From Chroococcidiopsidaceae cyanobacterium CP_BM_RX_35 (GTDB lineage Bacteria; Cyanobacteriota; Cyanobacteriia; Cyanobacteriales; Chroococcidiopsidaceae): a stretch of DNA of 6,685 bases. The stretch lies in NCBI GenBank assembly GCA_019242465.1, contig JAFAVL010000175.1, forward strand, positions 1-6,685, written 5' to 3'. The stretch's first letter is position 1, and each line of letters starts with the position of its first letter. The notes under the pieces are model-generated. The model was not told the origin of the DNA. It did not search any database and saw only the letters and a list, made by a program, of their open reading frames with translations. Shown in pieces: positions 2,455 to 6,685 of the stretch. The position numbers and the translations under genes were made by a program.

Positions 2455-3699
2455 TTAGAAAGTGGGATAGTCAAACTCAATATAGAGACACTCCAGTCCC
2501 CGCATGAGTACGTTTGGTAAGTACTGATAATCTTCCTGTGCCAAACGGATGTTCTTAAGCCGTAGCAGCAAACGCTCATAGGCAATCTGCATTTCCTTTC
2601 GAGCCAGCATAGCGCCCAAACAAAAATGAGTGCCATGACCAAAAGACAAGTGGCTGCTTGCATTATGGCGGCACACATCGAAACGCTCACCCTCTGGGAA
2701 CTTCACGGGGTCGCGATTAGCAGCATCGAAGCGGATCATAACCAAAGACCCAGCTTCGAGATCAACATCTGCGAGTTTCGTATCTTGCGTCACAACTCGC
2801 CACATTCCTGCTGTCGGATTTTCCATCCGTAGAACTTCTTCAACAAAGTTCTGTAGCTGGGAATCTATTTGTAATAGCTTCATCTGCTGAGGATTCTTTG
2901 CTAGCAACAACATTCCAGCTGCAAGCGCACTGGTGATAGTCTCATTACCTGCCACTAGGATTTGCTGAATGATACTTAGCAACTCAGCCATGTCGAGTGA
3001 TCGCTCTCCAGCCACTTTTGCTTGTACCAAGTCAGTGATCAAATCATCCTGAGGCTGTTTTTGGCGTGACTCTATGACACCACGAAAATAATGCTGGAAA
3101 GCAACGATATCTTTAGCACACTGGATCTCCTGCTCCCTAGAGAGCATGTGACCTAGACGCGCAATAAAAGCATCAGACCATTGCTTGAACTTTGACAGAG
3201 CTGCTTGCGGTACACCTAACTGCTGAGCAATAACTTTGATCGGTAAGGGTACGGCAAACTCACTGACGAATTCACACTTGCTCTTTTCGGCGAAACTGTC
3301 AATGAGTTCATCAACAGTTTGCTGAATCAAGTCATGCATCTTGTTGATCCGCGATGAGGTAAACGCCTTATTCACCAGTGCTCGGAATCGCTCGTGTTCT
3401 GGCGGATCGGCTGTGAGCAGGGTGTTTATCTGAGGCCAGCCTTGAGCAGAGATTTGCTGCAACTCCAGATCCTGTTCTTCTTTGCCAACCAGTAAAGTCG
3501 AGAAATTGCTAGAGAACACTCTTGTATCCTTAAGAATTTCTATCACCAAATCGTAGCTGGTGACGAGAAAGAGCTTGGCGTTAGCTCTAGGACTAGGTAG
3601 CTCCTTAATGGGTGCTTGCTCCTGTGCCAGCTTATAGAATTCATAAGGGCACACAAGTAGTTTAGGGTCAAAGAAGTTGTAGTCTGATAGATGCTTCAT
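2455..3699 (-). CDS. Bacterial cytochrome P450
   Basis: A 414-residue soluble P450 of normal bacterial length with no membrane anchor. The landmarks appear in order. C-helix DPPEHERFR (98-106) has the His and Arg that hold a heme propionate. I-helix AGNETI (250-255) keeps the oxygen-activating acid/Thr pair E253-T254, with Ile where a second Thr is usual. K-helix ExxR is E288-R291. The heme loop FGHGTHFCLG (353-362) has the ligand Cys360. It should be an external monooxygenase taking electrons from a ferredoxin/ferredoxin reductase; no redox partner is in the window and the substrate is unknown. The lost FAD monooxygenase immediately downstream suggests a secondary-metabolite tailoring pair. 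The ATG at 3699 matches the usual P450 start (NFFDP at residues 8-12) but has only a weak AGAAG before it. An in-frame leader ORF and an IS6 element lie directly upstream. Confidence 0.93.
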   Translation of the reverse strand: MKHLSDYNFFDPKLLVCPYEFYKLAQEQAPIKELPSPRANAKLFLVTSYDLVIEILKDTRVFSSNFSTLLVGKEEQDLELQQISAQGWPQINTLLTADPPEHERFRALVNKAFTSSRINKMHDLIQQTVDELIDSFAEKSKCEFVSEFAVPLPIKVIAQQLGVPQAALSKFKQWSDAFIARLGHMLSREQEIQCAKDIVAFQHYFRGVIESRQKQPQDDLITDLVQAKVAGERSLDMAELLSIIQQILVAGNETITSALAAGMLLLAKNPQQMKLLQIDSQLQNFVEEVLRMENPTAGMWRVVTQDTKLADVDLEAGSLVMIRFDAANRDPVKFPEGERFDVCRHNASSHLSFGHGTHFCLGAMLARKEMQIAYERLLLRLKNIRLAQEDYQYLPNVLMRGLECLYIEFDYPTF

Positions 3700-3776: not shown

Positions 3777-3778
3777 GA

Positions 3779-4611
3779 GGGTTGTGTTGCAAAATTTTTT
3801 TGAGGACAGAAAACTTCTTGAAGAAGGAATTGCTTATGCGGCCACTCCCAAGATTTCAGCGATGAATTTCACCCATTTTCTAACGGCTCCTTTCTCTACT
3901 TTTTCGATCTGTCCCTTTCTCAGCATATTCATAATTTCGTATCCTTTTAGTGTTCGTCTTGCTGTATTAAATGAGCTAAATCCCATCCCCGGTTTGACCA
4001 ACCTTTTAATAAATCTATGGTCTTGTTCAATTCGATTATTCAGATACTTGTTCTGTCGTAACTCTACTCCCTCGGACAACTCTTCTTTCTCTTTAAGTTC
4101 GGCAATGGCTTTGGGATAGGCAGCATTCTTATCCACATTAATCACTCTAGGCTCTTGGTTGTGAATTGCCTTCAACGCTTTGCAGAGAGAACGTTTAGCC
4201 GCTTCGGCATCCCGATGAGCGGTCAACAAAAAGTCAATAGTCTTACCAAGGGAATCGACGGCACGGTACAAGTATCTATCCTTGCCTTTAATCTTGATGT
4301 ACGTCTCATCTACTCTCCACGAGTCATTAGTCGGACACAGATGCAGTCGGCATCGCTTATCCAATTCTGGAGCATATCGCTGGACCTATCGGTATATCGT
4401 TGAGTGATGAACATCCAAGCCCCGTTCATTTACCATCTCTGCCACTTGCCGATAGCTGAGCGGGTAGCTCAAGTACCAGCGGACGCACAGTAGGATGATT
4501 TCTGGTTCATAATGGCGCCATTTGAAAGGGTTGGACTTGGGCATGGAGAGAAAGCAGACAGGCGTACGAGCTTCTCAGCTTATCACTACCCCCGATTTTT
4601 GCAACACAACC
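3779..4611 (-). mobile_element. IS6-family (IS240/IS26-like) insertion sequence, both ends present
   Basis: An 833-bp element bounded by inverted repeats. The left end reads GGTTGTGTTGCAAAA at 3779-3793; the right end reads the same 15 bases on the complement from 4611. Size, the single transposase on the complement and the GGTT-TG-TGCAAA type of terminal repeat fit the IS6 family. The flanks CCTCCTGA (3771-3778) and TTCGCTTG (4612-4619) do not match, so the expected 8-bp target duplication is absent. This suggests a deletion or recombination at one side after insertion. The right end abuts a second, truncated IS6 copy. Confidence 0.85.
3834..4544 (-). pseudogene. IS6-family DDE transposase with a premature amber stop
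   Basis: Read from ATG at 4544, MPKSNPFKWRHYEPE is a standard IS6 N-terminus and the frame gives 236 codons, normal for the family. It is broken by TAG at codon 53 (4388-4386) in the context STIYR-stop-VQRYAPELDK. The neighbouring IS6 copy has Trp at this place (STINRWVLKYALELDK), so a TGG to TAG change is the likely cause. The catalytic triad is otherwise complete: D79 in WRVDET, D138 in INVDKN, E173 in NRIEQDH, with the DD(34)E spacing. The C-terminal GYEIMNMLRKGQ is also intact. Unless the amber codon is suppressed or translation restarts downstream (176 codons lacking the HTH part), the element cannot move by itself. Confidence 0.88.
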
Positions 4612-4859
4612 TTCGCTTGTCTAATTCCAGAGCATACTTCAGCACCCATCGATTGATCGTGGAATGATCTACTTCCACCCCTTGCTCTTGCATCATCTCC
4701 TCCAAATCTCGATAGCTCAAGGCGTAACGGCAATACCACCGCACATTCAGCAGGATGATCTCTGGCAGAAAGTGCCGCCACTTGAATGATGGAGAAGCCA
4801 TTTAGACCGAGGTCAGAGAAAATTAAACCCTCTCACTTTATCATTTTTGCGACAGAACC
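4612..4859 (-). mobile_element. Second IS6-family element, truncated (transposase N-terminus and one end)
   Basis: The complement carries the terminal repeat GGTTCTGTCGCAAAAA from 4859 inward and then a transposase start at ATG 4801-4799 (MASPSFKWRHFLPEIILLNV). The coding part runs about 63 residues, through the DNA-binding region STINRWVLKYALELDKR, and is cut at 4612. There it meets the first IS6 element; the frame continues a few codons into that element's terminal repeat before a stop at 4588-4586. The catalytic DDE domain and the other end are gone. The sequence is related to the neighbouring IS but clearly distinct, so this is not a simple duplication. Confidence 0.85.
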
Positions 4860-4861
4860 AA

Positions 4862-4966
4862 ACGTTGGAGGTCCACATTCATCGGTTGCGGGAAAAATTA
4901 GAGCTAGACCCCAAAAAGCCCGAGTACATTATTACAGTCGAAGGATTGGGTTACCGATTTGGGTAG
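4862..4966 (+). pseudogene. OmpR/PhoB-type response regulator, C-terminal fragment
   Basis: Thirty-four codons ending at TAG 4964-4966 read TLEVHIHRLREKLELDPK, then EYIITVEGLGYRFG. This is the recognition helix (V-H-I-x-R-L-R-x-K-L) and the C-terminal beta-hairpin wing (I-x-T-V-x-G-x-G-Y-R-F) of the winged-helix DNA-binding domain of OmpR/PhoB-type regulators. The receiver domain and the rest of the effector domain are missing, because the outer end of the truncated IS6 copy (4859) cuts directly into it. No matching N-terminal half is found on the far side of the IS elements (3700-3778). The original gene was therefore destroyed by deletion as well as insertion. Confidence 0.85.
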
Positions 4967-5203: not shown

Positions 5204-5271
5204 CAGATGATAACACTAACGTTTTCCAATGCCTGTCTACTCTTGAGTGCCAGTGTGATTTGAATCAAAGT

Positions 5272-5329
5272 TTGGCGCAAAGCGCCAAGGTTTACTTCAC
5301 AAGATAATGCGCCAACCTATACTTCACAA
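5272..5329. repeat. GCGCCAA hairpin plus 21-bp tandem repeat (iteron-like)
   Basis: TTGGCGC (5272-5278) and GCGCCAA (5282-5288) form a perfect 7-bp stem with an AAA loop. The right arm also opens a 21-bp repeat: 5282-5302 and 5309-5329 match at 18 of 21 positions (GCGCCAA, two changed bases, then T-x-TACTTCACAA) with a 27-bp period. GCGCCAA thus occurs three times, once inverted and twice direct. Such arrays are typical of protein-binding iterons or transposase sites at element ends; which applies here is unknown. Confidence 0.55.
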
Positions 5330-5560
5330 AAAGGGAGGCGGGTATTAAGCAATGTTTCGCCACCAGTATCGAAAGCTAGGAAGAGCCCAAGGTAGTTGAC
5401 GTTTGACAGGTGGGGACGCAACCAAAAGATTATTTGTCGATGTTTAAGATTGAATTAGTTTGAGGTTTCGGTAGGGCGGTAGGTGAACGGTGTCTGCGGA
5501 GCGGTTTAGGCTTTATTGTGGTGTTCAGACCATTTGCCAACTTGATAGGAGGACATCAAC

Positions 5561-6058
5561 GTGACTGATGAACAACATTCTTTACTGAAAGCATCAGACA
5601 TCAATTCAATGGATGCGTTTGAGTTTCATCATCCGCTCAATCCCAATTCAGAAATTTATTTACGGTTTCTTGGGCGTACTGTCGGTCTTAAACGCATTGG
5701 GGTGACGATTGCTCGTGTACCATCAGGCAAAGAATCTTTCATTTACCACGCTCACCAGAATGAAGAAGAATGGGTTTACATCTTGTCAGGTCGAGGGATC
5801 GCGGAGATTGGAGATCTGGAATACGAAGTTGAACCAGGAGACTTCATGGGATTTGGGCTACCTCAACAACCCCATCATCTTCGTAATCCATTCAATGAAG
5901 ACCTTGTATATTTGATAGGTGGAGAAGCAGGATGCTTAGATGTTGCCGTTTTTCCTCGGCTTGGTAAACGAGTGATTAGGGATAGTGAGTCAGCTTACAT
6001 ATTTGATGAGTCAGCGCTTCAACTTTTTTGGAGCAGCAAGCGATCTGCTGAGGATTGA
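5561..6058 (+). CDS. Single-domain cupin protein, probable integron cassette gene
   Basis: A 165-residue protein with one complete small-barrel cupin domain. Motif 1 is HAHQNEEEWVYILSGRG (63-79): H63, H65 and E69 or E70 are likely metal ligands. Motif 2 is PGDFMGFGLPQQPHHLRN (92-109): H105 is the fourth ligand, followed by the H-x3-N spacing. Such proteins bind Fe, Mn, Zn or similar metals and act as isomerases, dioxygenases or ligand-binding proteins; the sequence does not choose between these. There is no HTH domain and no signal peptide. The GTG at 5561 is fixed by AGGAGGA (5547-5553) with 7 nt spacing. The stop lies 21 bp before an attC-like site in the correct orientation, so the gene looks like a cassette. 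No promoter of its own is evident, as is common in cassettes. Confidence 0.88.
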   Translation: MTDEQHSLLKASDINSMDAFEFHHPLNPNSEIYLRFLGRTVGLKRIGVTIARVPSGKESFIYHAHQNEEEWVYILSGRGIAEIGDLEYEVEPGDFMGFGLPQQPHHLRNPFNEDLVYLIGGEAGCLDVAVFPRLGKRVIRDSESAYIFDESALQLFWSSKRSAED

Positions 6059-6079
6059 TGTCTGCTCTTCGTGGTCGCG

Positions 6080-6166
6080 GTATAACAATTCAAATGCAGC
6101 GGACTGAAGAGAATTCCTCGTGCTGAGTTTGGTCTTGTTTGCCGCCGCTGATTTGAACCGTTAGAT
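6080..6166 (+). repeat. attC: attC-type integron recombination site (87 bp)
   Basis: R'' is GTATAAC (6080-6086), 6 of 7 to RYYYAAC. R' is GTTAGAT (6160-6166), a full match to GTTRRRY. Between them the arms fold as in known attC sites. TAAC pairs with GTTA; AA faces CC as an unpaired central spacer; TTCAAAT (6089-6095) pairs with ATTTGAA (6151-6157). G6096 is extrahelical, and CAGCGG (6097-6102) pairs with CCGCTG (6145-6150). A loop of about 42 nt (6103-6144) is the variable terminal structure. Size, box order, spacer, extrahelical G and placement 21 bp after a cassette-like gene all agree. Integron integrase recombines the folded bottom strand between G and TT of R'. No integrase gene is in the window. 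Confidence 0.85.
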
Positions 6167-6267
6167 AGCACTAATACTAATGGAGATGAACTCAACCATT
6201 TAGCGGGATTTCGTGACTGCTATTATCGATAGTTTTAATCTCCAATCTTGTCTCGTTGTGGCTTACG

Positions 6268-6685
6268 TTATCCAACACGCTGAGCCGACTTTTTCTGCAC
6301 CGCAGATGCTTCTGATGCTACAGGTTGTGTTTTTTCACCTGTTGTTTCAAAAACCTGTAACTCTGCTGTAGGCGAGGGTGCAATTTCTTCAGAATGAGCT
6401 GATGTAGCTTTTGAGCGACTCTGTCGCTTCTTGGGAGTCGGGGCTAGTTCTGGTGTAGGCTCAGTGGCAGTGGAAGCAACCACTTCTGCCATTGTTTTAG
6501 AAGAACGCTTTTTTCGAGTAGTTTTGTTAGACGGTGGCTCAATAACAGATGTGGTTGAGATTGCTGGTTCAGAGATTGGAGTAGGAATAGCAGTAGAATT
6601 CATGCCCATTTGTAATAATTGCCACAAATGTTCGCGACGACTTTCTACATATCTGAGTTTTTGTTCTCCCTCAACAGCATCTAGA
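6268..6685 (-). CDS. Unrecognised protein, C-terminal part, with basic low-complexity tail (runs off right edge)
   Basis: The complement is open from the window edge to TAA at 6270-6268, so 138 C-terminal residues are visible and the start lies outside. Frames that begin at TTG 6627 or at inner ATGs would miss the helical part. Residues 1-29 of the visible part (AVEGEQKLRYVESRREHLW region) form a charged amphipathic helix, perhaps coiled coil. The rest is Pro/Thr/Ser/Ala/Glu-rich and probably disordered, with three basic patches at about 54-63 (KTTRKKRSSK), 85-92 (KKRQSRSK) and 131-136. Such tails suit binding to DNA, RNA or an acidic partner. I do not recognise the family. It converges with the cupin cassette, leaving the attC site between them. 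Confidence 0.6.
   Translation of the reverse strand, partial: LDAVEGEQKLRYVESRREHLWQLLQMGMNSTAIPTPISEPAISTTSVIEPPSNKTTRKKRSSKTMAEVVASTATEPTPELAPTPKKRQSRSKATSAHSEEIAPSPTAELQVFETTGEKTQPVASEASAVQKKSAQRVG

Follow-up and report, generated by a model that had tools for sequence, protein, structure and literature searches.

A cupin gene ending in an attC-type recombination site, a likely mobile integron cassette of cyanobacteria

The 6,685-nucleotide stretch of DNA analysed here, referred to as the window, very probably carries a cupin gene cassette of the cyanobacterial integron type, ended by an attC site. Since the cupin gene ends in an attC-type recombination site, the unit is likely to be a mobile integron cassette, and one which has likely been moved between many cyanobacteria. 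The cupin gene, its leader and the attC site make up a discrete unit that occurs at 23 other loci whose surroundings are unrelated, and sites located beside cyanobacterial intI genes fall into the same covariance family as the window site. An earlier sequence-only reading of the window had proposed an attC site in a cyanobacterial-type context, and both proposals are supported. It had also described integron cassettes as little described in cyanobacteria, which does not hold: Cyanobacteria are named as integron carriers in PMC2426708, PMC8618304 and PMC9668308, and PMC8352920 presents a Cyanobacteria attC covariance model made from chromosomal cyanobacterial attC sites. With cyanobacterial integrons and a cyanobacterial attC model already in print, what is new is the window cupin cassette. 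No account of it was found in the open literature, most subscription papers being outside the scope of the search.

Table 1. Features located in the window, with the evidence for each.
Feature	Position	Strand	Evidence
Cassette leader	5396..5560	+	Left end inferred near GTT 5395-5397
Cupin gene, 165 aa, GTG start	5561..6058	+	ORF; Pfam Cupin_2, E 2.2e-13
attC site	6080..6166	+	R1 82.5 bits, bottom-strand fold, pair counts
TnsC/TniB-like ATPase C-terminal tail, Tn7-like transposon, cut by window end	6268..6685	-	L150 tnsC match
IS6-family insertion sequence	3777..4614	-	18-nt terminal inverted repeats, 94% complementary; DDE_Tnp_IS240
Response regulator gene, last 34 codons, cut off by transposase fragment	4862..4966	+	Trans_reg_C, E 7.3e-12

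The attC site and the cassette

The outer boxes of attC sites have the consensus RYYYAAC and GTTRRRY. The window site begins with GTATAAC, which departs once from this consensus, and ends with GTTAGAT, in which we presume the cut to fall between G6160 and T6161. The hairpin between these boxes is imperfect, with AA opposite CC in the spacer that separates outer box from inner arm and a single unpaired base in the left arm, which is a G on the top strand and a C on the bottom strand; in well-studied attC bottom strands the unpaired base is a G. When the bottom strand was folded as single-stranded DNA it reached -13.1 kcal/mol, and none of 200 dinucleotide shuffles was as good (z -3.0). The top strand gave -11.8 kcal/mol and was equalled by 8 of 200 such shuffles.

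As no family of Rfam 15 matched at the site, a covariance model of our own, R1, was built from five aligned attC-like sites, none of which follows the cupin. Contigs carrying an open intI supplied two of these (L096, L100), contigs whose intI match contains one stop codon supplied another two (L101, L102), and the fifth came from L007, where intI is present only as fragments. The source regions lie around integron integrase matches, plus some weaker ones, in cupin-bearing genomes; a match over the TIGR02249 cut-off was present in 6 of the 23 genomes with a close cupin relative (among the best 80 of 146 relatives). Two home-made attC scanners had been tried earlier. The first was so strict that it overlooked the site of the window itself, and the second found it along with 4-6 matches per shuffle of 513,654 bases; the covariance model was used in their place.

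With R1 the window site scored 82.5 bits (E 3.8e-20, 65 sources searched) versus 32.7 bits when read in the opposite direction, so the orientation of the site is clear. With filters off the model recovered the site again, and the next best match elsewhere in the window reached 8.1 bits. Two of the checks which the sequence-only reading had proposed, a covariance search and folding of the bottom strand, favoured attC. In an alignment of eight sites, the window's included, 92.3% of cells paired and both sides had changed in 6 of 20 pairs, values which were reached by 3 and 1 of 500 shuffles, respectively. Slid versions of the alignment gave far lower values, a comparison that is favoured by the structure having been drawn from the same eight sites.

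As had been read from the sequence, the cupin stop codon lies 21 bp ahead of the attC site on the same strand, giving the arrangement of a gene cassette, in which one gene is directly followed by an attC site of shared orientation. We infer the left junction of the window cassette from alignment, at about 5395/5396, where a GTT is present; it was placed there because in three relatives (L007, L014 and L022) the leader is immediately preceded by the end of an attC-like site. Homology detected by BLAST starts at 5415. The median difference in the leader was 0.17 compared with 0.25 at fourfold sites, with the leader lower in 24 of 28 pairs, and some constraint on the leader is possible. In an alignment of window positions 5425-5563 with seven relatives (A4), a predicted helix pairs GATGT with GACATC at the end of the ribosome site. 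Both sides had changed in 1 of the 34 predicted pairs, so covariation support for an RNA structure in the leader is minimal.

The cassette gene is predicted to encode a cupin of a single domain that binds metal. Its His 63, 65, 105 and 106 together with Glu 68-70 were invariant in 25 aligned sequences, hand-chosen from 120 listed, which would fit metal binding. Five structure models had pLDDT values of 43-80. The nearest structure to the best of them (80.3) was 3l2h (E 2.1e-14, 35% identity), whose deposition names it a putative sugar phosphate isomerase; the sequence profile also matched 3l2h, with an E of 2.5e-33. Nothing in NCBIfam exceeded its cut-off for the cupin.

The cupin unit at other loci

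A scan of genome contigs retained the best 80 of 146 relatives, and 23 loci were studied (L001-L022 and L025). Within this set, cupins 87-95% identical to that of the window were found at at least 23 loci, two of them partial (L021, L025). In five cases (L008, L011, L012, L021, L025) no more than about 400 bp separate the cupin from a contig end, and little of one flank is visible. The DNA shared with the window was confined to 5415-6163 in all 23 relatives (among the best 80 of 146), and an attC-like site was present just upstream of the leader in three: L007 (21.1 bits, E 0.028), L014 (28.5 bits) and L022 (41.8 bits), one of the three being weak. The cassette thus behaves as a mobile unit delimited by attC junctions. 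Among contigs of viral origin there were 19 pattern matches, none of which was a relative.

With L021 and L025 set aside, divergence of the cupin was compared with that of the hosts at the other 21 loci, recA serving as the single yardstick. The median difference at fourfold sites was 0.26 for the cupin compared with 0.68 for recA, and the cupin value was the lower in 209 of 210 pairs.

An R1 site followed the cupin in six of the 23 relatives (L001, L004, L007, L008, L010 and L012) with scores of 22.7-50.9 bits, compared with which the window site is the best preserved; in the remaining 17 (among the best 80 of 146 relatives) R1 gave no match after the cupin. Two loci place the cupin in an array. 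Trichocoleus sp. FACHB-40 (L007, contig G007:C19) has four attC sites, the cupin standing between the first and the second, and intI fragments are carried on the same contig, which shows a decaying integron. In Nodosilinea (L022) the cupin follows three attC sites at the end of the array, preceded by three GNAT acetyltransferases in a row. A single cupin can therefore be traced from attC arrays to a solitary copy with an intact attC site, that of the window, and on to copies with decayed sites, which makes the escape of cassettes and their domestication outside integrons testable, and in a phylum whose integrons are surveyed. At L012 (534-617) and L018 (3326-3868) a gene of similar start, with a weak match to AAA_28, lies after the cupin, and the two loci possibly share a two-gene array.

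The site family and its relation to integrons

Of 386 cyanobacterial genomes sampled, 22 had intI at E <= 1e-70 and at least 72 had an R1 site at E <= 1e-5, the latter figure being a lower bound since filters were strict and 11 candidates were scored per genome. The site family is dispersed, and it follows unrelated genes in many genomes. Nine proteins preceding sites were scanned with Pfam, seven of them upstream of sites that reach 37 bits or more and two upstream of weaker L022 sites. A family was assigned to eight and none to the ninth, the families including the three GNAT acetyltransferases of L022, DUF1993, HNH, GFA, F420/NADP oxidoreductase and L-PSP endoribonuclease family protein. 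Such a distribution is what would be expected of an ordinary interspersed palindrome, of REP or MITE type, that happened to lie after the cupin by chance, and the sequence-only reading had named recurrence of the palindrome after unrelated genes, as an ordinary interspersed repeat, as evidence against attC. The first half of this was found but not the second, as the orientation of the sites to the upstream ORF is fixed: 25 of 29 distinct sites come after an ORF on their own strand (80 aa or longer), versus 2 of 29 for the mirrored arrangement. These 29 sites score at least 37 bits and include five used in R1 and four that follow the cupin, and the ORFs were found mechanically. The sites are also linked to intI, being present in 17 of the 22 intI genomes versus 55 of the 364 others (Fisher p 9e-10, two lists joined; draft assemblies may hide intI), and arrays run divergent from intI, as in G196, where intI is on the plus strand and four sites on the minus strand lie no more than about 10 kb from it. 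As gene and site are in addition mobile together, we regard a chance palindrome as highly improbable. The hairpin might also be read as a transcription terminator or RNA element of the cupin transcript, given its position right behind the stop codon and the ability of its top strand to fold as well. A terminator-like pattern is, however, absent at the site and present only at 5271-5289, Rfam gave no match, and behind unrelated genes the structure recurs although its bases have changed, so this explanation too is highly improbable.

Returning to the cassette reading, a complete integron containing sites of this family is present on plasmid pB of Kovacikia minuta CCNUW1 (NZ_CP083584.1). Annotated genes on the minus strand are followed there, at a distance of 7-20 bp, by four strong sites, and the plus strand carries an annotated integron integrase; a fifth site scores a weak 19.4 bits. 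The plasmid shares the covariance family of its attC sites with the window but, unlike it, has the integron entire, and no cupin is annotated among the genes listed in 41 kb. An open cyanobacterial IntI (L100) aligned with PDB 2a3v over residues 3-313 of 314 (E 4.9e-93). Against the simple picture, the R1 sites of one genome (G034) are not near its intI. With respect to the published Cyanobacteria model, PMC8352920 agrees with our work in phylum and in kind of site; R1 differs in being our own model from five sites.

R1-type sites were also seen scattered over the chromosomes of G005, G262 and G301, with some small clusters. None of the three has an intI match at E <= 1e-70, and their sites look like a population of solo cassettes.

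The solitary copy and its surroundings

Clusters of attC sites that lack intI are known as CALINs. This label had been applied to the window cassette, and it does not fit: one site is present within the window, where two or more are needed. Nor does intI stand beside the cassette there to make a complete integron; the absence of an integrase noted in the sequence-only reading agrees with Pfam, as none of the eight window proteins that were scanned matched a tyrosine recombinase. With a single attC, one gene and no intI in view, the arrangement is that of a SALIN, a single attC lacking integron-integrase according to PMC12690207, rather than a CALIN, as far as the 6.7-kb window goes; intI or a further attC could exist just outside it.

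On the left of the cassette lies an IS6 element; the Tn7-like tnsC tail on the right had been overlooked in the sequence-only reading. The product of that tail is 50% identical over 101 aa to the tnsC of L150, which has AAA_22 and TniB matches in Pfam and follows a TnsA-like transposase gene, while NCBIfam gave nothing over its cut-off for the Tn7-like proteins. The window tnsC frame ends earlier than those of its relatives, and translated homology continues to about 6235. The right flank was matched in 5 of the 386 cyanobacterial genomes, and these five relatives with tnsC had no cupin match in the stretches compared. Because DNA homology of the right flank begins only at window position 6236, no insertion point or empty site can be demonstrated. 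Given the adjoining tnsC tail, the cassette may be cargo of a Tn7-like element, which suggests that such elements may carry single cassettes.

The bottom strand of attC is predicted to fold into a hairpin which would be the substrate for integron integrase, and IntI acting in trans would excise the cassette and insert it between the G and TT of the GTTRRRY box. For the presence of the window copy outside an integron, insertion at a secondary site is a likelier cause than survival as a remnant, and the copy would then lie next to or inside a Tn7-like element able to carry it onward. Insertion of cassettes at attG sites, for which Loot et al. 2024 is cited, would account for a lone cassette far from an integron, the empty site being what the window cannot supply.

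That the cassette is instead the last remnant of a complete integron at this position, perhaps itself Tn7-like cargo, from which intI and the other cassettes were lost, is an explanation we hold to be possible, if somewhat doubtful. The decaying integron of L007, with cupin, attC sites and intI fragments on one contig, provides a precedent; about 10% of Tn7-like transposons in the survey of PMC8649781 carry an intact or partial integron, and the IS6 elements on the left could have deleted DNA. The window, on the other hand, contains no second attC and no trace of intI, and in G005 and G301 the sites lie far apart with no intI, so single cassettes are common. We tentatively extend the solo-cassette reading to a large economy of such units in cyanobacteria, each made up of a single gene, a conserved leader of its own and an attC site, of which the cupin unit would be one self-sufficient example, seen in the window with its attC intact. 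It may be, with the same reserve for the sequence of events as a whole, that cassettes escaped from integrons to scattered sites and Tn7-like elements, were repeatedly fixed there and had their attC sites decay.

To the left of the cassette, two ORFs that share a frame (3834-4364 and 4386-4544) together make up the split IS6 transposase, and a second transposase fragment at 4586-4801, within the region 3777-4859, appears by eye to belong to another IS6-type element. A cytochrome P450 gene is present at 2455-3699 on the minus strand, in a region 82% identical in DNA to a plasmid of Nostoc sp. HK-01. On the plus strand at 380-1064, a small ORF is followed by a PIN_2-domain gene in the layout of a toxin-antitoxin pair, and pairs of this kind occur on Chroococcidiopsis plasmids.
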